Source: a virus. From it: a stretch of 30,826 bases of DNA. The position numbers and the translations under genes were made by a program. The notes under the pieces were generated by a model. It was not told where the DNA came from, did not search any database, and saw only the letters and a program-made list of their open reading frames with translations. The stretch spans positions 1-30,826 of the IMG/VR virus record IMGVR_UViG_3300043392_000051; one strand, 5' to 3'. The first letter of the stretch is position 1. Each line of letters opens with the position of its first letter. Below, one piece after another: positions 4,316 through 23,558 of this stretch.

Positions 4316-5022
4316 TTTGCTGTAGCCAATGCCTTGTCAATTTCCTGATAAAGGATTTGGTTGAATTTGGCTTCGACCACCGGGCCTGCAATGGCTTCCA
4401 TGTCCAATTTCTTTTCGTACTTTGCGGGTGTGTCTTCAAACACGATCACCGGGATCAACTTACCCGGCCCCCCTGAGCTTCCTGGAATGCGCCGCCAAAT
4501 TCCGAGTGGCGCGTTTTCCCAGCCAGCACCACGGGGAACGCCGAAGAACAGTTGCAGCGGCTGGCCTTTTTGCCCTTTTCGGCGGTTGGTACCGCCAGCG
4601 CCGATTCGCCGCGCAAGGGCCGCGCTGAGTTGCCCGTTTTCTGCTGCATCCTTGAGCTTGGTAATGATGCCGCGCGGGATGTTCCCGAAGGCATTGAGTT
4701 GGATGTTTCCGGGCAACCTGATGCCAGCTTCATGCGGGTCATAAATGCCGCCAGACTCTTGCATTGCCAGGTACTTGGCTTGGATTTCTTTGAACCCCAC
4801 TTCGGCCACCAGCTCTTCGCGCGTGGCCCGTTTCGTGTAGGTACCGTTTTTGGTGAATGGTGTTGGCCGGTCAAAGGCCTTGTCCAGCTCGCCTGGAATG
4901 GCTTTTCTGACTTCAACGGCTGTCTTGGTCAGCGCGGATGCAACCGCGAACTTGACCTGTTTGAGGCTGGTGGCCATGGCGGCTTTGACTTTGGCGTCAT
5001 TGACATCAACTTTGATCTTCAT
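4312..5022 (-). CDS. Putative minor tail / head-tail completion protein (gpZ-like)
   Basis: The protein has 236 residues. The N-terminus (KVKAAMATSLKQVKFAVASA, then LTKTAVEVRKAI) is a long amphipathic helix as in phage tail-completion proteins of the lambda gpZ/HK97 gp10 type. The middle is basic and Gly-rich (RRIGAGGTNRRKGQKGQ). The C-terminus has a beta strand (LIPVIVFEDT) followed by a helix, as in gpZ. No catalytic motif is visible. The odd point is its place: gpZ-like genes usually lie between head-tail joining and tail tube genes, whereas this one precedes the terminase. It overlaps both neighbours, so it belongs to this operon. The family call is a weak pattern match, and the protein should be treated as unknown if that fails. 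Confidence 0.4.
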   Translation of the reverse strand: MKIKVDVNDAKVKAAMATSLKQVKFAVASALTKTAVEVRKAIPGELDKAFDRPTPFTKNGTYTKRATREELVAEVGFKEIQAKYLAMQESGGIYDPHEAGIRLPGNIQLNAFGNIPRGIITKLKDAAENGQLSAALARRIGAGGTNRRKGQKGQPLQLFFGVPRGAGWENAPLGIWRRIPGSSGGPGKLIPVIVFEDTPAKYEKKLDMEAIAGPVVEAKFNQILYQEIDKALATAK

Positions 5023-5267
5023 GGCTTGCTTTCAGTTTTTGGGGCCGTGGAGGCGCTTTTCTCGATCAGGGCATCCAACCCCTTGGACAACTCTTTTTCA
5101 TCGCCTGTGAGCGTGATTTGCATTGCCCTGAGGCCGGGGAACAGGTCTTGTTCCTGCAAAGACTTCACCAGATCGTGCAATTCAGGCCAGGACTTGACCA
5201 CCTCTTGAAACTTTTTGGCGTTTTCAGGGGTGCAGCGGATCAAGGCAGTTTGTTTTTTTCCATCCAT
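5019..5267 (-). CDS. Small hypothetical protein next to the origin-like array
   Basis: The protein has 82 residues, starting MDGKKQTALIRCTPE, with a helical middle (NAKKFQEVVKSWPELHDLVK) and a beta-like MQITLTGD. It overlaps the next gene by ATGA. I do not recognise it. The same frame is open upstream to an ATG at 5555 that overlaps the primase stop codon, giving a 178-residue alternative. That extra N-terminus would be a low-complexity His/Thr/Cys translation of the repeat array and has no protein character, so the start at 5267 is preferred. An AAGAAAG stretch lies directly before this ATG as a weak ribosome binding site. Confidence 0.6.
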   Translation of the reverse strand: MDGKKQTALIRCTPENAKKFQEVVKSWPELHDLVKSLQEQDLFPGLRAMQITLTGDEKELSKGLDALIEKSASTAPKTESKP

Positions 5268-5277
5268 CTTTCTTTTT

Positions 5278-5523
5278 GTGCGGTATGTGGGGTGTGAAGT
5301 GCGGTATGGCCGATGACGTAAGTGGTTGATTTGATTGGCGTGTGCGGTATGTGCGGTATGTGAGGTATGGGTACACACATGCACATGCACACGCACACGC
5401 ATGCACACACATGTGCGCCTGTGCGTCCGTGTAAGGATTGATACCGCACATACCGCACAAGCCTTGAAAATCAATGGTTTGATGGCGCACGGGATACCGC
5501 ACGGGATACCGCACATACCGCAC
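5278..5523. repeat. Inverted iteron array, candidate replication origin
   Basis: Between the primase gene and the 82-residue gene lies a 246-bp block built from copies of a 10-bp unit, GTGCGGTATG. On the left half it reads forward at 5278, 5299, 5342 and 5351, with a variant (GTGAGGTATG) at 5360. On the right half it reads in reverse (CATACCGCAC or GATACCGCAC) at 5440, 5449, 5493, 5505 and 5514. Several copies are spaced exactly 9 bp apart. The two arms are nearly symmetric around position 5400, where a purine-pyrimidine alternating core lies. Iterons next to a primase-helicase gene are typical of phage and plasmid origins. Origin function is inferred; the repeats and symmetry are seen directly. 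Confidence 0.7.
5371..5418. other. 48-bp alternating purine-pyrimidine tract (Z-DNA or easily melted core)
   Basis: Every base from 5371 to 5418 alternates purine and pyrimidine (mostly CA/TG steps with some CG, and GCATGC near the centre). Such tracts can adopt left-handed Z-DNA under negative supercoiling. It sits between the two arms of the inverted iteron array, where an initiator-bound origin would be expected to distort. It is far too regular to be coding. Confidence 0.75.
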
Positions 5524-5551
5524 AGAGCAGGCCGAGACAGGGTGCATTCGG

Positions 5552-7897
5552 TCATCGCCCGACACCTCCCATGCCCTTGAAGTCCTTGAGCGCCATCTTG
5601 AAGACGCCAACCCGCTCACCAATCCATTCGCTCTCGCCCCTGCCTGGTGGCAGCTCGTGCCCGCCTTTGAGAAAGGCGATGGCCGATGGCCCTTTGAGGC
5701 CAGATTCACTGTCGTAGCGCTTGCGCTCTACCGCCGCCCCATGCTTGCGCTTGAGGGCATTTGCAAAGCGTGGCTGGTTGAGCGCTTTGAGGCCAACACG
5801 ACCACACCATGCGTGGTAGAGGTCAAACAGGTCTTGACTCAGGCATGGCGACAGCAGCTTTGGGGTGTGTTTTCCGGGGAAGCCTTCGACATCGCCAGCC
5901 TCAAAGGCCAGCATGAATCGGCTTGGACTGTCCAGGCTCAGGTCAATCAGCTCACGTTTCGCATCGGTCATGGGCGGCAGCGTGGCCGCATTGAAGTCAC
6001 CCAGGTCAAGGTGCAGAAGGTAGTCATGCAGGGCCGCCACGCCATTGCCATCAATCTCAGCCTTGACGCCTGCATAAAACTCACGACTGAGCTTTTCGGG
6101 CGTCCAGATCACCGCATGCCTGCGGTCATCCTCTTCCAGCACCACCGGCATGGCCTCATTCGACAGGAAAACCATGTTCACATGGTTTTTCTCTTCGTAG
6201 GCCGCCATGTTTTTGGGGTTGATCCGAATCCACTCCCCGGTGATGAATGCCTTGAGCTTGTTTTTGATGTGGTACAGGTCAGACCGCGCCACCACTTCAT
6301 CGGCAATCAGGAACAATTTTCGACTGGCCCAGTCGTTGAATTTGTCTTCAATGGCCGACTGATCAATCACACGGCCATACGGGCCGTATATGCCCATGAT
6401 GGCTTCAAAAAACATGTTTTTCCCGGTGCCTTGAGGGCCATGGATCACCAGCGTTGTTTTCATCTTTGCGCCGGGATGCTGGATCGGGTAGGCCAGCCAT
6501 CGGATGCACCACTGGAAAAGCTCTTCGGGTCTGCTGTCGCCTGCGCACATGTAGCGCAGCAAGTCCAACAGGTTTTCGCAATTGCCTGACTTTGGCGTGG
6601 TCGGCCATCCTGACCACAAGTTGCAATGAATGCTTGGATCGGTGCAGGCCGGGTCAAAGCCTACCTCTTGCACTCGCACCAAATGCCGGTCTGGATGCTC
6701 AGCCCATGACCGATGCAGCTCACGGGCCACACACGCATCGCGCATGTCGCTCAAGGCGACAAGGCAATGCTCCTGGTGGTCAAACACCGTGCCGCCTTGG
6801 CCGTACACCAGCGAAAAGCGCTCCAACAACTCATCCAGTGAATCAATGGGCCTGAGGGGCTGTTTTTCCGCGCTCCCCTCCCCCTGTGCTGTGCTATCAC
6901 GCGCAGCGGCTGGGCCAACTGTCCACCCCAATTCCGAGATGCGGCCTTGCACCTGAGCGCGGACAACATGCAGTCCTTCGGCCAGGTGCAGGTCATTGAA
7001 GTCAGTGATCTTGATGCCCTTGGACTCATAGGCTTCGCGCCTTGCCACTTCGTCAGCGAAAACGGGAGCAACGTATGCGCCGCCAACCTCAAGCGCGGCA
7101 GCACTTGCGCATGTCACGCCCGGATTGCCCTGACTGAAAACGTCATCGTCGGCGCAGATCAGCATGCGGGTTTTTTTGTATCGCTTGCGAAGTGCCGCGG
7201 CCACGGGTGCCAGGTTGCCTGCGTCAAACGCCACGGCCACCGGAATGCCTGTGGCCTCATAGAGGCTGGCCGCTGTGGCGTAGCCCTCAGCAATCAGCAT
7301 CAACGGCCCAGGCATGCCGATCAGGTGGAAGTGGGCTTTCTTGATCAGGCCAGCGGGCCAGAATTCCTTGCCCAGTTTGCGCTGGCCGTTTTGCTTGCCG
7401 CGAATGATTTGCAGGCCATGGATGTTGTTGGCCGTGTCCAGCATGGGAATGACCATCGAGCCATTCGGACTGAAACGGATGCCGTGCGCTCCCACCCCCT
7501 TGCGGTGGAGGTAATCGCAATCGCCATCTTCAACGCATTTTTTCCAGGCTGCGGTGGCCCTTCGTGCCGCCCGCTCCGCATCGGCCTTGCGCACCAGTTC
7601 GGCCCGCTTGCTGTCTTCGGCCAGTCGCCTGCGAAGGCTGGCCCGTTGCTCTTGGCTGATTTCGGACTGGCGAATGTCGATTTTGACGGCGTTGTTTTCG
7701 GCTCCGCGCCAAATGCCATAGCTGCCAACGATCAGGTCATCGCCGTTTGCCAGGCGAATTTCATGCACGTGATACCAGCCGCGCTTTTCGCGCGTCCCTT
7801 CGACCCGGCAGCGGGTGAGTTTGCCGACCTCTAGGGACTGGACATCCAGGCCCGCTGAGCGCAGTTGGCTCAGCACATCATCGTAGTTCGAAGCCAT
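5552..7897 (-). CDS. Replication primase-helicase (Toprim domain plus SF3-type helicase, DUF5906-like)
   Basis: This large 781-residue replication protein has an N-terminal region of about 190 residues with charged helices, then a Toprim-like domain. The Toprim acidic residue lies in LMLIAEGYATAASL (Glu204), followed by MLICADDD and KITDFNDLH. The second half is a superfamily 3 helicase/ATPase with Walker A GPQGTGKNMFFEA (about 487-499) and a Walker B-like LFLIADEV. Such fusions prime and unwind phage DNA, often as the only replication enzyme encoded. The start (ATG 7897) overlaps the previous stop as TGATG. The stop is followed directly by the iteron array, which supports an initiator or replicase role at that site. 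Confidence 0.9.
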   Translation of the reverse strand: MASNYDDVLSQLRSAGLDVQSLEVGKLTRCRVEGTREKRGWYHVHEIRLANGDDLIVGSYGIWRGAENNAVKIDIRQSEISQEQRASLRRRLAEDSKRAELVRKADAERAARRATAAWKKCVEDGDCDYLHRKGVGAHGIRFSPNGSMVIPMLDTANNIHGLQIIRGKQNGQRKLGKEFWPAGLIKKAHFHLIGMPGPLMLIAEGYATAASLYEATGIPVAVAFDAGNLAPVAAALRKRYKKTRMLICADDDVFSQGNPGVTCASAAALEVGGAYVAPVFADEVARREAYESKGIKITDFNDLHLAEGLHVVRAQVQGRISELGWTVGPAAARDSTAQGEGSAEKQPLRPIDSLDELLERFSLVYGQGGTVFDHQEHCLVALSDMRDACVARELHRSWAEHPDRHLVRVQEVGFDPACTDPSIHCNLWSGWPTTPKSGNCENLLDLLRYMCAGDSRPEELFQWCIRWLAYPIQHPGAKMKTTLVIHGPQGTGKNMFFEAIMGIYGPYGRVIDQSAIEDKFNDWASRKLFLIADEVVARSDLYHIKNKLKAFITGEWIRINPKNMAAYEEKNHVNMVFLSNEAMPVVLEEDDRRHAVIWTPEKLSREFYAGVKAEIDGNGVAALHDYLLHLDLGDFNAATLPPMTDAKRELIDLSLDSPSRFMLAFEAGDVEGFPGKHTPKLLSPCLSQDLFDLYHAWCGRVGLKALNQPRFANALKRKHGAAVERKRYDSESGLKGPSAIAFLKGGHELPPGRGESEWIGERVGVFKMALKDFKGMGGVGR

Positions 7898-8085
7898 CAG
7901 TAACTTGCGCCTCGACTGACTACAAAGCTATCGCGCCGCGAATGACCCTCATTATTTTTAGAGGGGGAAGAACCTAACCCGGGGGGGTTCCAAACCTGTG
8001 CGTCAGTAAGAGGCTTTGTCAGTTGACATGCCGCATGCGCGATGACCCCCATGTGGGGAGCGGGGTTGCGTGTGCGCCTGGTCAT
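7897..8085 (-). CDS. Small hypothetical protein upstream of the primase
   Basis: The 62-residue frame begins MTRRTRNPAPHMGV. It is linked to both neighbours by ATGA/TGATG overlaps, which is the main argument that it is translated. It is rich in Ser, Pro and Arg, has no hydrophobic core and matches nothing I recognise. It may only serve to carry ribosomes to the primase start. Confidence 0.4.
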   Translation of the reverse strand: MTRRTRNPAPHMGVIAHAACQLTKPLTDAQVWNPPGLGSSPSKNNEGHSRRDSFVVSRGASY

Positions 8086-16856: not shown

Positions 16857-17112
16857 GTGCAACATTCAGTGCAACATGCACTACCACAAATACCGCAAGC
16901 ACTTGATTTTTATGGCGTTTTCAAGATTTGTCGCATCAGTCCATCATCGGCGCAACCGACAAACGCCACATCGTTGATTTCAAAGGATTTTCAGGAAAAT
17001 CAACGACTTGCGCGGGCTTTTTGTCTGTCTCGTTTGTTGTCATTCAATGCGTTTTTGGTCTATTTGGTGCAACGGTGCTACATTTCGGTGCTACAAATTT
17101 CAGATGTTGCAC
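16857..17112. repeat. Repeat cluster upstream of integrase, candidate attP or Int/Xis control region
   Basis: The 320-bp gap before the integrase (from 16801) has no gene. It holds repeated octamers GTGCAACA at 16857 and 16869, GTGCAAC at 17067, GTGCTACA at 17075 and 17088, and the reverse TGTTGCAC at 17105. They fall in two clusters about 190 bp apart, on either side of an inverted repeat. This layout resembles arm-type integrase sites around an attachment core. No tRNA-like sequence is visible as a core. Function inferred. Confidence 0.5.
16971..17006. repeat. 10-bp inverted repeat upstream of integrase
   Basis: TCGTTGATTT (16971-16980) and AAATCAACGA (16997-17006) are perfect inverted copies, 16 bp apart. 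No T-run follows, so it is not a normal terminator. It may be the attachment core, an excisionase site or an operator. Confidence 0.55.
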
Positions 17113-20073: not shown

Positions 20074-20496
20074 TTACAGGCCCAGGGCGGCTTTTTGAGC
20101 GCGGCCCCATGCGCGGCAGTCTTCAACAAAGTCATTCCACGCGCTGGTCTCCGAGCTGGGGGCAATGCGCAGCAGCTTGATTTCATCGTCAATGGAATAG
20201 CGCGAACGGATTTGCTCGACCACCTGACGGTCAATCAGTTGCACTTGCGGGCTGGCTTGGCAAATGGCATCGCGCAGCATTTCAGGCAGCGGGCTTGGCT
20301 GTGTTTCGATGCTGTCCACGATTTCTGCGGGCTGGTCTTGCGGCAGCACGGCATCACCGGGAAGGCTCACGTAAGTGGTGCCGTCAATGGTTGCCAGTTC
20401 AGTGCCAAGGCGCTGGCGGTTTTCGCCCTCAGGCAACACCAGCTCTTTGGTGGTCAGTTCGTTGATAAATTTTCGGTAGGAGACGATAGAGGTCAT
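20074..20496 (-). CDS. Hypothetical tail-associated protein downstream of the DGR
   Basis: The 140-residue protein starts MTSIVSYRKFINELTTKELV, with AAAGGA before the ATG. The C-terminal IDDEIKLLRIAPSSETSAWN plus FVEDCRAWGRAQKAALGL resembles short C-terminal modules of tail fibre chaperones. A fibre assembly role would suit its place between receptor-binding protein and holin genes but is a guess. The start lies 68 bp inside the RT reading frame, which shows that the DGR RT gene ends in sequence belonging to this gene. Confidence 0.55.
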   Translation of the reverse strand: MTSIVSYRKFINELTTKELVLPEGENRQRLGTELATIDGTTYVSLPGDAVLPQDQPAEIVDSIETQPSPLPEMLRDAICQASPQVQLIDRQVVEQIRSRYSIDDEIKLLRIAPSSETSAWNDFVEDCRAWGRAQKAALGL

Positions 20497-21460
20497 GGTT
20501 GTTTTCCTTTACGGTTGAGATGAGGTGTTTGAGGCTGCATGTATTTCGGGCATGACCCAAAATTGAGGTGATCGGCGCCAGATTGCTTTCGCGAACGGCC
20601 CGACCGAATTTGAAGAGGCTGTGCTTTCGGATGTACCGGCGTGTGCGCCAGGTGCGGTATCCCACAAAATTCAATCCGCGCTGGGCTGGATGAATGCTGT
20701 ATCTCGAAAGCTCAAGATTTAATTTTTCGGCCAAAAATGTTTTGATTTGTTCGAGCGCATCAATGCACTCTGAGCGAGTCCAGCCAAAGACCACGAAATC
20801 ATCGACATAGCGGCAATACAGGCTGGCTTTCAATTCCCTCTTGATGAAGTGATCAAGCGGGCTCATGTAGATCAGCGCGTAAAGCTGGCTCAGCAAATTG
20901 CCAATTGGGATGCCAAGCGGTTCCGTGCGGGGGTGTCCATATTCAGCAAATTGCAGCATGACGCCGACAAAGCGACGATCCTTGATCCGGTGTTCAATCA
21001 AGCCGCGCAAAATATCGCGGTCAATTCTGTAAAAAAACTTTCTGATGTCGAGTTTCATCACGCACGTGCCGGGATCAATGGAGCGCAATGATTGCTGCGC
21101 ATAATCGGCGGCCTTGTGTGTGCCCTTTCCATGGCGACATGCAAATGACTGGTCAATAAATCCAGCATTGAAAATCGGGTAGGCCAATCGGTAAATGGCA
21201 TGCTGCACCACAAGATCGCGGAATGCCGGTGCATAAATGATGCGTTTTTTGGGCTCATAAACGTGAAATTCGATGTACGGCGTTGGCCTGTATGTGCCGC
21301 CATTGAGTTCGTCATAGAGCGCATCCAGATTGCTGGCAAGCCTGCGCGAAAACTCAAGGCAGGCGCGTTTTTTCATCTTTCCATGGCTGGCATCAATCCA
21401 TGCCTGATACAGGGATTCACGGCTGAAAGCCTGATCGAACAAATTTCCAATGCGCTTCAA
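20429..21460 (-). CDS. DGR reverse transcriptase
   Basis: The enzyme copies the TR RNA into cDNA with errors at adenines. The 343-residue size is typical for DGR RTs. Catalytic acids: Asp138 (MKLDIRKFF) and the YVDD box at 218-221. The DGR-specific SQ-containing motif is seen at 183-192 (GIPIGNLLSQ, instead of the QG of many retroelements). The start is TTG at 21460 with GGGGG about 8 bases upstream; no in-frame ATG is nearby. A thumb region follows (FVGYRTWRTRR) and the last ~20 residues are read through the start of the downstream gene. The adjacent TR, avd and VR confirm the class. Confidence 0.96.
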   Translation of the reverse strand: MKRIGNLFDQAFSRESLYQAWIDASHGKMKKRACLEFSRRLASNLDALYDELNGGTYRPTPYIEFHVYEPKKRIIYAPAFRDLVVQHAIYRLAYPIFNAGFIDQSFACRHGKGTHKAADYAQQSLRSIDPGTCVMKLDIRKFFYRIDRDILRGLIEHRIKDRRFVGVMLQFAEYGHPRTEPLGIPIGNLLSQLYALIYMSPLDHFIKRELKASLYCRYVDDFVVFGWTRSECIDALEQIKTFLAEKLNLELSRYSIHPAQRGLNFVGYRTWRTRRYIRKHSLFKFGRAVRESNLAPITSILGHARNTCSLKHLISTVKENNHDLYRLLPKIYQRTDHQRAGVA

Positions 21461-21602
21461 GATGCAACCCCCAGGCTTTCGACGGCCATTTGGCCGCTAC
21501 TAGGAAAGAGGTGTGCGGCAGATTTCGCGCTGGGTTGCCCCAATCGCGGGAAAACGTCTCCCTTGGAGCCACCATCCACTTGCGTGGTGCGAGGTGAATC
21601 CG
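21461..21602 (-). ncRNA. Spacer of the DGR RNA between TR and RT
   Basis: This is 142 nt between the TR 3' end and the RT start, free of a credible gene. In the Bordetella DGR a spacer of similar length, downstream of TR, is part of the RNA that primes and templates cDNA synthesis. Here it contains CGGCC-(4)-GGCCG (21483-21496), a GC hairpin, near the RT start. The RNA role is inferred from the known system; the transcript ends are not known. Confidence 0.6.
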
Positions 21603-21720
21603 AGTCCGAGCGGAACCCGTAGTTATCGTTCGAGTTCGCCCGCGAATTGTTCAAATTCAACGACCAGACACCCGCATTCGACGAGTTGTCCCAGTTGCCG
21701 CCACAATTCGGACACATGTC
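21603..21720 (-). repeat. DGR template repeat (TR)
   Basis: The 118-bp sequence matches the VR at 22202-22319 without gaps. All 18 mismatches are at T on the plus strand, that is adenine in the coding-sense TR (26 such positions); the other 92 bases are identical. Read in the VR frame it is rich in AAC/AAT codons (10 Asn in about 38 codons), exactly the codons that adenine mutagenesis can spread over many residues. It begins two bases inside the avd stop codon and ends 142 bp before the RT start. Confidence 0.97.
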
Positions 21721-22174
21721 AAGACGCCTCCCCGGTTGCCCCGGCCATCCGGGTTGCCTTTTCTGGCTTTGATGGTGTGGCCTCACGCTCACGCTCAAAC
21801 ATGAGCCATCCACCAATCATTCGGCCCAGCTCATCGACCATGCGGCTGATTGCCATGTACCGATGCTCAGCCATGCCCATGGGCTTGGCCTTGGCCTGTT
21901 CGCCATCCTTGAAGCTGAAATAACCCAGCTCAAACGCCAATCGGATGAACATGCGCAATTGCTCATGCGCAATGTCCAGATTTGTGAGCGTGGTTTTCTT
22001 GTGGTAGCGCTTTTGAGCCTCCACGATGAGGCCGTAGCACTCATACGCCTTGCGCCTGATTTCCTGCGCAAGCCCGTATTTTTCGTGCTTTGGAAAGTGG
22101 TTCAAATACAGGTTCATTTGCTTGGCAAATTCCGTGAATTTGGCATCCAGCTTTGCTTCATCGTGAAGGCCCAT
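21719..22174 (-). CDS. avd: Accessory variability determinant (Avd)
   Basis: The 151-residue, helical, positively charged protein (KFTEFAKQMNLYLNHFPKHE, YGLAQEIRRKAYECYGLIVE, YHKKTTLTNLDIAHEQLRMF) fits the Avd four-helix-bundle family, which forms a pentamer, binds the DGR RT and TR RNA and is required for mutagenic homing. Its place between the target gene and TR copies the Bordetella phage BPP-1 order (target, avd, TR, RT). The last residues (about 130-151) are low-complexity and the stop overlaps the TR start by two bases. Confidence 0.92.
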   Translation of the reverse strand: MGLHDEAKLDAKFTEFAKQMNLYLNHFPKHEKYGLAQEIRRKAYECYGLIVEAQKRYHKKTTLTNLDIAHEQLRMFIRLAFELGYFSFKDGEQAKAKPMGMAEHRYMAISRMVDELGRMIGGWLMFEREREATPSKPEKATRMAGATGEAS

Positions 22175-22190
22175 CGCTATCGCTCAGGCC

Positions 22191-23558
22191 TCAAAGATAC
22201 AAGGCCGAGCGGAACCCGTAGAGAGCGCCCGAGCTCGCCCGCGAATCGCTCAAAACCAACGACCAGACACCCGCAGCCGACGAGTCGCCCCAGGAGCCGC
22301 CACAACTCGGACACATGTCCGCTGTGCTGTAGTCATACAGGATGTCATTGCCAAACTGGTTGGAGCCGCCAGAGACCAGGGGGATGCCCGCCGCAGTCAT
22401 TTGCCAAGCGGTGCCACTGGTGGCGTTGCTCAGAACTTGGCTTGCGCTGCCCATGGTGATGGCGCGGTCACTGAAGTTGACGGCGTAGCCGGTAAAGCTG
22501 TTCATGACGCCCAAATCGTCATACAGGGCAGCCAGGCCGGTAGCGCCCCAAAGGTCAGTCGCCAACGAGTTGCCGCCCGTGACGGCTGCCATGTTGGCCG
22601 AGGTCTTGAGGACGTAGAAGCGGCCCGTTGAGGGATCGCTTGCGCTTTGCGTCAGGCCGGGGGTGATTTCCCAAACAATGCCGTTGAGGTCAACCACGCC
22701 GCACATTTGGCCGTTGTGCGCGGTTTTCGCCATGAAGTTGGCCGAGCCAGTCTTGCCGCAGTTGTATGTGCCGTTGCCATCGTTGACATAGGCAATGGTG
22801 GCGTCTTGCGCATCGCCAAGGGCGTTGTTGTTGCAGCCCTTGGGGAAGTTGGTGGAGCCGCTTGAGTACCAGGCATTGAACGTGGTGGAGGTGCTGGCAC
22901 TGCCATGGGCGGTGGACAGCAAGGCCAGCATTTTGAAAATGAAGATGCTGGAACAGAAGAAGTTTGACCCACGGGTTTTTGCGGCTGCAATGGCCCCATA
23001 GAAAGCGTTGGCCGGTGAGCCGGTCAAGCTCGAAAACGCTGTGGCCGCAATGGAGCCGCGCTGCGCACTGGACAGCACGATGCCATTTTTGAGCGAACTG
23101 GCAACACCGCTGTTGTTCGAGCAAAGGTACTTGTCAACGAAAACACCAGGGCGGATGGTGCCGTTGTTGTAGAAGGCGCGGTGCAAAGCATAACCGGCGG
23201 CATTGGCATCGGCCACGCTGGCATAAGTGGCAAATGGCTTGACATCAATCACGTTGATGGCAAGGCCGTTTGCGCCGGTTCCGACCTTGTAATAAAAGGC
23301 AGGCACGTACACCATGACCGAGCCATCGGTGTAGACATAGTTGCCGTAATTTTGGCTGGCCGGGTCTTCGGTACCGTAGAGTTTTGCCATGCCAGACGGC
23401 AGCTCAGGCGCGATGCCAACGCCGAAGCCTTGCTGGCCTGGAACACCAATGTTGTTGACGATGCCAGCGCCACCGGCTGAGCCAATGCGGATGCCATAAG
23501 GGAAGTTGACGGGTGAACCGTCCGGGGTGCGGACTTCGCGTGCGATTAAGTTGCTCAT
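22191..23558 (-). CDS. DGR target: variable receptor-binding tail protein with C-type-lectin-like C-terminus
   Basis: The 455-residue protein is the presumed receptor-binding protein at the tail tip. The N-terminal part (LIAREVRTPDGSPVNFPYGI, then Gly/Asn-rich beta sequence) probably attaches to the tail. The last ~40 residues lie in the VR and follow the known DGR lectin-fold pattern: GGSWGDSSAAGVWSL, SRASSG and the terminal YGFR. Variable residues alternate with invariant Trp, Gly and Tyr scaffold residues. Start and stop are normal (ATGA overlap upstream), so the allele is intact and usable. Confidence 0.93.
   Translation of the reverse strand: MSNLIAREVRTPDGSPVNFPYGIRIGSAGGAGIVNNIGVPGQQGFGVGIAPELPSGMAKLYGTEDPASQNYGNYVYTDGSVMVYVPAFYYKVGTGANGLAINVIDVKPFATYASVADANAAGYALHRAFYNNGTIRPGVFVDKYLCSNNSGVASSLKNGIVLSSAQRGSIAATAFSSLTGSPANAFYGAIAAAKTRGSNFFCSSIFIFKMLALLSTAHGSASTSTTFNAWYSSGSTNFPKGCNNNALGDAQDATIAYVNDGNGTYNCGKTGSANFMAKTAHNGQMCGVVDLNGIVWEITPGLTQSASDPSTGRFYVLKTSANMAAVTGGNSLATDLWGATGLAALYDDLGVMNSFTGYAVNFSDRAITMGSASQVLSNATSGTAWQMTAAGIPLVSGGSNQFGNDILYDYSTADMCPSCGGSWGDSSAAGVWSLVLSDSRASSGALYGFRSALYL
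22202..22319 (-). repeat. DGR variable repeat (VR)
   Basis: The 118-bp 3' end of the target gene aligns with TR at a fixed offset of 599 bp. It encodes 13 substitutions relative to TR, for example Asn to Ser, Asp, Ala, Val, Gly and Leu. The GC-rich 3' end of the repeat (CGGGTTCCGCTCGG in coding sense) is invariant, as expected for the initiation-of-mutagenic-homing (IMH) element; past it, TR and VR diverge at non-A bases. Confidence 0.97.

Follow-up and report, generated by a model that had tools for sequence, protein, structure and literature searches.

A two-arm iteron array beside a phage primase-helicase gene: a probable replication origin resembling those of phage satellites

A two-arm array of 9-bp iterons lying immediately 3' of a primase-helicase gene is very probably the replication origin of the phage that carries it, with the adjoining primase-helicase as its initiator. 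Judged by comparison of sequences, the array appears to be a phage-borne variant of an origin design known from phage satellites, its origin function being suggested by its position, its conserved geometry and the way in which its repeat word and the C-terminus of the primase-helicase change together.

The array was studied in a virus contig from IMG/VR, record IMGVR_UViG_3300043392_000051, and "the window" refers here to the whole stretch of 30,826 nt. The window is probably a fragment of a genome. Its phage is temperate and integrase-bearing, with genes for TerS, TerL, head-tail joining, tape measure and tail proteins and for an integrase. The window also holds a diversity-generating retroelement at 20429-23558, comprising a reverse transcriptase (20429-21460, minus strand), a template repeat (21598-21720) and a variable repeat (22197-22319) located 3'-terminally in a 455-aa ORF; 18 of the 20 differences fall at template adenines.

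Position and geometry of the array

Repeats are found on both strands at 5278-5523, as the original prediction had it, in the following setting.

5019-5267, minus strand: orf5019, a small conserved ORF of 82 aa just past the array
5233-5277: A/T-rich flank just outside the distal arm (AT 0.62 vs 0.43 for the locus), overlapping the ribosome-binding region of orf5019
5278-5368, plus strand: distal arm, read towards the centre, with iterons at 5278-5286, 5287-5295 (decayed), 5299-5307, 5342-5350, 5351-5359 and 5360-5368 (one mismatch)
5319-5331, minus strand: distal-arm site with perfect IHF consensus, AATCAACCACTTA, flanked by outer and inner iterons
5369-5440: 72-bp centre between the two arms
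5441-5523, minus strand: primase-proximal arm, read towards the centre, with iterons at 5441-5449, 5450-5458, 5482-5490 (decayed), 5494-5502, 5506-5514 and 5515-5523
5469-5481, plus strand: proximal-arm site with perfect IHF consensus, AATCAATGGTTTG, flanked by outer and inner iterons
5552-7897, minus strand: primase-helicase, 781 aa, with Toprim (residues about 200-308) and SF3/DUF5906 helicase (about 461-597) domains
5570-5845, minus strand: predicted C-terminal winged-helix domain of the primase-helicase (residues about 685-776), the proposed iteron reader

Ten copies had been described, and these correspond to nine exact copies of GTGCGGTAT, placed by a 9-mer scan at 5278, 5299, 5342 and 5351 on the plus strand and at 5441, 5450, 5494, 5506 and 5515 on the minus strand, and to one copy with a single mismatch (GTGAGGTAT, plus strand, 5360). 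Two decayed copies with two mismatches each, GTGGGGTGT at 5287-5295 and ATGGCGCAC at 5482-5490, stand in register with better-kept sites of relatives, and the full design of 5278-5523 therefore comprises 12 iteron positions (6+6) rather than 10. The two opposed arms that had been placed around 5400 are indeed present, with a symmetry centre at about 5405, and the exact 9-bp tandem spacing claimed for several copies recurs in both (9, 9, 43, 12 and 9 bp in the distal arm; 9, 12, 12, 32 and 9 bp in the primase-proximal arm). The array starts 28 bp past the stop codon of the primase-helicase gene, and its position between the replication gene and the packaging genes also held, with the primase on one side and orf5019, a minor-tail-like gene and the terminase genes on the other. 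Chance is excluded, since the nine copies of one 9-mer compare with at most three in 2000 dinucleotide shuffles of 5201-5600 and with at most three copies of any 9-mer in every other 400-bp stretch of the window.

The centre contains an unbroken 48-nt alternating purine-pyrimidine run (5371-5418, GC 0.57), and only 0.2% of locus windows show alternation as high. Among relatives, the centre mostly stands within the top 1-2% of windows at its locus in purine-pyrimidine alternation, which is weaker in the GTGCAGGGT class (median 4%). The centre of the window array is not AT-rich (AT 0.43, equal to the 0.43 of the locus), and across 23 loci the mean AT of the centre is 0.375 vs 0.379 for the loci; the flank outside the distal arm tends towards A/T-rich in relatives. 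Perfect IHF sites number 21 in 9.9 kb of arrays vs 6 in 344 kb elsewhere, and these ratios are not probabilities because the sequences are related and non-independent. Within a wider array set the GTGCGGTAT class holds 21 of the 27 IHF sites, and IHF binding as a general array feature was rejected, the sites being nearly absent outside that word class. Elsewhere in the window, two more perfect IHF consensus sites lie 100 bp apart by the integrase gene (16896-17010), which is possibly the attP region.

Relatives of the array and its likely reader

Primase relatives were found in virus contigs (37) and genomes (7), and nearly all of them (about 40) have a two-arm array immediately past the primase stop codon. 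The spacings agree and the words vary, these being GTGCGGTAT, GTGCGGCAT, GTGCGGGAT, GTGCCGGGT, GTGCAGGGT and GTGCAGCTT. A comparison of repeat layout in relatives, proposed with the original prediction, thus came out in its favour in that the two-arm geometry is kept, the word itself differing and being changed in nearly all copies together. More distant phages have GTGTTGGGT-type or TGTTGCGGT-type words, and PG1, pAN, Turba, Mcat9, H4907, PS3 and LPPA36 show related layouts with other words, as judged by eye and repeat count only. The primase is present in L036/L037, where no clear array was found, which counts against the origin reading.

Pattern scans of IMG/VR with four of the words, covering contigs that may overlap those of the primase-relative search, returned 202 stretches, including 118 two-arm arrays. 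Within 350 bp 3' of a homologous primase-helicase lie 100 of these 118, and 8 of the other 18 are near contig ends. Same-strand spacings among the 90 distinct arrays peak at 9 (314) and 12 bp (113), and at 11, 21, 32 and 43 bp. A two-arm array of the same words occurs in L084 (1036-1284) beside an 813-aa protein unmatched by the primase profile, and others occur in L121, L122, L141, L153 and L201, with no recognised primase beside the L121 group, a further point against the origin reading. In Stenotrophomonas phage S1 (L051, 2454-2804) the annotated gene gp2 spans the iteron array, and gp2, at least in its first part, is probably non-coding.

The arrays point inward in 87 of the 90 distinct cases, the first iteron running along the primase gene and the last pointing back, and this constancy speaks against an operator or autoregulatory site through which an RHH-like or Cro/YdaS-like regulator, or the primase, would control transcription. 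Such a site is suggested by the location of the array between operon segments, by the RHH-like and Cro-like genes upstream of the primase, and by iteron plasmids, in which autoregulation is common. However, the RHH-like gene is present in only 5 relatives, and twelve mirrored sites over 250 bp downstream of a replication gene would make an atypical operator, so that we hold this explanation to be very unlikely.

Regarding the initiator of the probable origin, two candidates had been named, the 781-residue protein and the RHH-like protein. The latter was rejected as reader, as tblastn finds it in only 5 fetched relatives while the array is near universal. The former is favoured by a close pair of relatives, L014 (GTGCAGGGT) and L020 (GTGCCGGGT), whose words differ by one base in 11 of 12 copies, L014 retaining one old copy at the outer end of its array. 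Between the two, identity is about 98% in the primase core and 96.3% in TerS. Codon changes in the primase amount to 4 nonsynonymous and 60 synonymous in residues 331-640 and to 17 nonsynonymous and 21 synonymous in residues 701-790 (Fisher p = 1.6e-4 for residues 701-790 vs 1-640), and the changes at residues 705, 708, 722-728, 733-734, 738-739 and 742 map to the recognition-helix start and the wing of the predicted winged helix. The four word classes compared (few sequences) have A, G, R or T at position 739. The L014 sequence has some N bases, and a tail-like gene between orf5019 and TerS differs in this pair too.

The joint change of word and C-terminus suggests that the primase-helicase itself is the likely reader of the iterons, through its C-terminal winged helix, and that the array is its origin. 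This assignment comes mainly from the one close pair because the cross-clade correlation is not specific: relative to iteron word, divergence of the C-terminal domain leaves a residual of 8.6 points and that of TerS nearly the same (6.9), and the correlation was dropped as proof of the reader. The divergence of orf5019 among relatives does not track the word.

The protein combines Toprim and SF3 (DUF5906) domains, as in the definition of an SF3/D5-type primase-helicase, and its predicted structure best matches the NrS-1 primase, followed by ASFV PrimPol, poxvirus D5/E5 and PriRep1, a SaPI Rep. For its C-terminal domain, prediction gives a winged helix (pLDDT about 90), and the model shows weak structural matches (Z <=5.4) to the origin-binding winged helices of Orc1/Cdc6/ORC and to the AsfvPrimPol C-terminus; the structural matches listed for this domain include neither the P4 alpha DNA-binding domain nor the SaPI5 Rep chain, an absence that carries no weight. 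At the sequence level, comparison with the PDB gave only a sub-threshold match, to the C-terminus of 7ola ('DNA primase', E 0.38).

Packaging and known replication origins compared

In many relatives the array lies between the primase and terminase genes, in some directly before TerS, and TerS divergence too tracks the iteron word across clades, all of which would suit a role in packaging, as a cosB or pac site recognised by the small terminase subunit, the gene for which is about 1 kb away. We give this explanation very little credence. TerS remains 96.3% identical in L014/L020 despite the changed word, and the PG1, pAN and Turba arrays follow the primase, not the terminase, with other genes between. 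Moreover, several independent virus contigs and the linear S1 record have conserved ends in a block upstream of the primase (GGGTCCTCCC...GCGGGTAATTCG...TGTGTAGTCAG, about 7898-7990), 31-95 bp upstream of the primase start. These ends suggest that the block is a probable cos site, and their clustering would place packaging about 2.4 kb from the array, which disfavours cosB or pac. The primase gene and the array would thus probably lie between cos and the terminase genes. A 62-aa ORF at 7897-8085, which overlies the probable cos block, is probably not a gene.

For the array as a probable origin, no named family with this design had been recognised, but this does not stand, as the SaPI/PICI origins and P4 crr are close. 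In SaPI/PICI origins two iteron sets flank a central region immediately 3' of rep, with an AT-rich region between the sets in the Gram-negative PICIs, an organisation described as unique to PICIs (PMC6092414). The SaPI, SCCmec and PICI Reps bind iterons 3' of their own gene and, in the cases tested, do so by the C-terminal domain (PMC7581432, PMC6092414), as for SaPI Rep and SCCmec Cch2 (PMC7581432). The putative Cch2 origin is similar in that a D5-type helicase recognises short iterons downstream of its own gene through its C-terminal domain, whereas this origin has three direct iterons only and no two-arm symmetry (PMC7581432). The arrays described here share with SaPI/PICI origins the location of the iterons immediately 3' of a primase/helicase initiator gene, the two sets around a central region, words that differ between elements and, as the predicted winged helix and the L014/L020 pair suggest, a C-terminal helicase domain as reader. 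However, the window array is not a PICI, because it belongs to a phage that encodes terminase, head-tail and tail proteins itself and is no satellite. It also differs in the fusion of a Toprim primase to the SF3 helicase, in its 12 sites with near-mirror spacing, in a centre that is alternating purine-pyrimidine instead of AT-rich, and in the IHF consensus sites of its arms.

P4 alpha is a primase-SF3 helicase with a C-terminal DNA-binding domain, and the window protein gives a weak match to the P4-type primase model TIGR01613 (24.5 bits, below the curated cut-off of 108.7). P4 (NC_001609) likewise has 9-bp-spaced repeats in both orientations just 3' of its primase-helicase gene, whereas its crr consists of two 120-bp direct repeats with AT-rich cores, its ori is distant, and the window has one array with a different repeat word. 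By analogy with P4, where crr, with its type-1 repeats, lies just 3' of alpha and the annotated origin is a separate locus, the array could be an auxiliary site that aids replication, with initiation at a second origin elsewhere. This reading appears very improbable, as a PICI replicon was maintained with rep and the equivalent site (PMC6092414), and as neither the window nor the complete S1 genome shows a second iteron cluster or separate ori; the window being probably a fragment, a second site could lie beyond it. Cumulative GC skew, which had been put forward as a check on the origin, counts neither for nor against it: neither the window nor phage S1 shows a turn at the array, and the S1 skew says nothing on the origin because it climbs along the whole record.

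Among eukaryotic viruses, SV40 large T antigen and papillomavirus E1 are SF3 initiators for which opposed sites load two hexamers at origins with AT-rich melting elements. The window array resembles these in pairing an SF3 initiator with opposed sites, and differs in its host, in its centre and in the position of the proposed origin-binding domain, which is N-terminal in large T and E1 (PMC7581432).

Proposed mechanism and significance

The view of the array as a candidate origin is well supported by comparison, as the array follows the primase, its geometry is kept and the C-terminal domain changes with the word in one close pair. Initiation could then proceed as follows. The C-terminal winged helix would bind the 9-bp iterons, as comparison strongly suggests, and each six-site arm may load one SF3 hexamer to give two head-to-head hexamers across the centre, a step proposed from the symmetry, the site number and the SaPI/SF3 precedent. 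IHF-type bends between outer and inner iterons could fold each arm, the sites for this being found mainly in the GTGCGGTAT clade. The duplex might melt at one of two places: the alternating purine-pyrimidine centre, which could pass from B- to Z-DNA under negative supercoiling, or the A/T-rich flank beyond the distal arm. The helicases would then part and the fused Toprim domain lay primers, leading to bidirectional theta replication of the circularised genome.

More tentatively, these arrays may represent a widespread type of phage origin whose architecture stays fixed while its code changes freely: the 9-bp word, in nearly all twelve copies, and its winged-helix reader would be rewritten together to yield mutually blind replicons, and a GC-rich, Z-prone alternating purine-pyrimidine centre would open in place of an AT-rich unwinding element; we regard this wider proposal as possible but rather doubtful.

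A type of origin that in 2018 was described as unique to phage satellites would thereby reach temperate phages with packaging and tail genes of their own, which bears on the source of the satellites' replicons. The natural series of words, with C-terminal domains to match, lends itself to studying how specificity changes jointly in an initiator and a dozen sites, and raises the question of why origins might have to be mutually blind in phages with a common host. How such origins melt is likewise a testable question, prompted by the recurrence of the alternating purine-pyrimidine centre.
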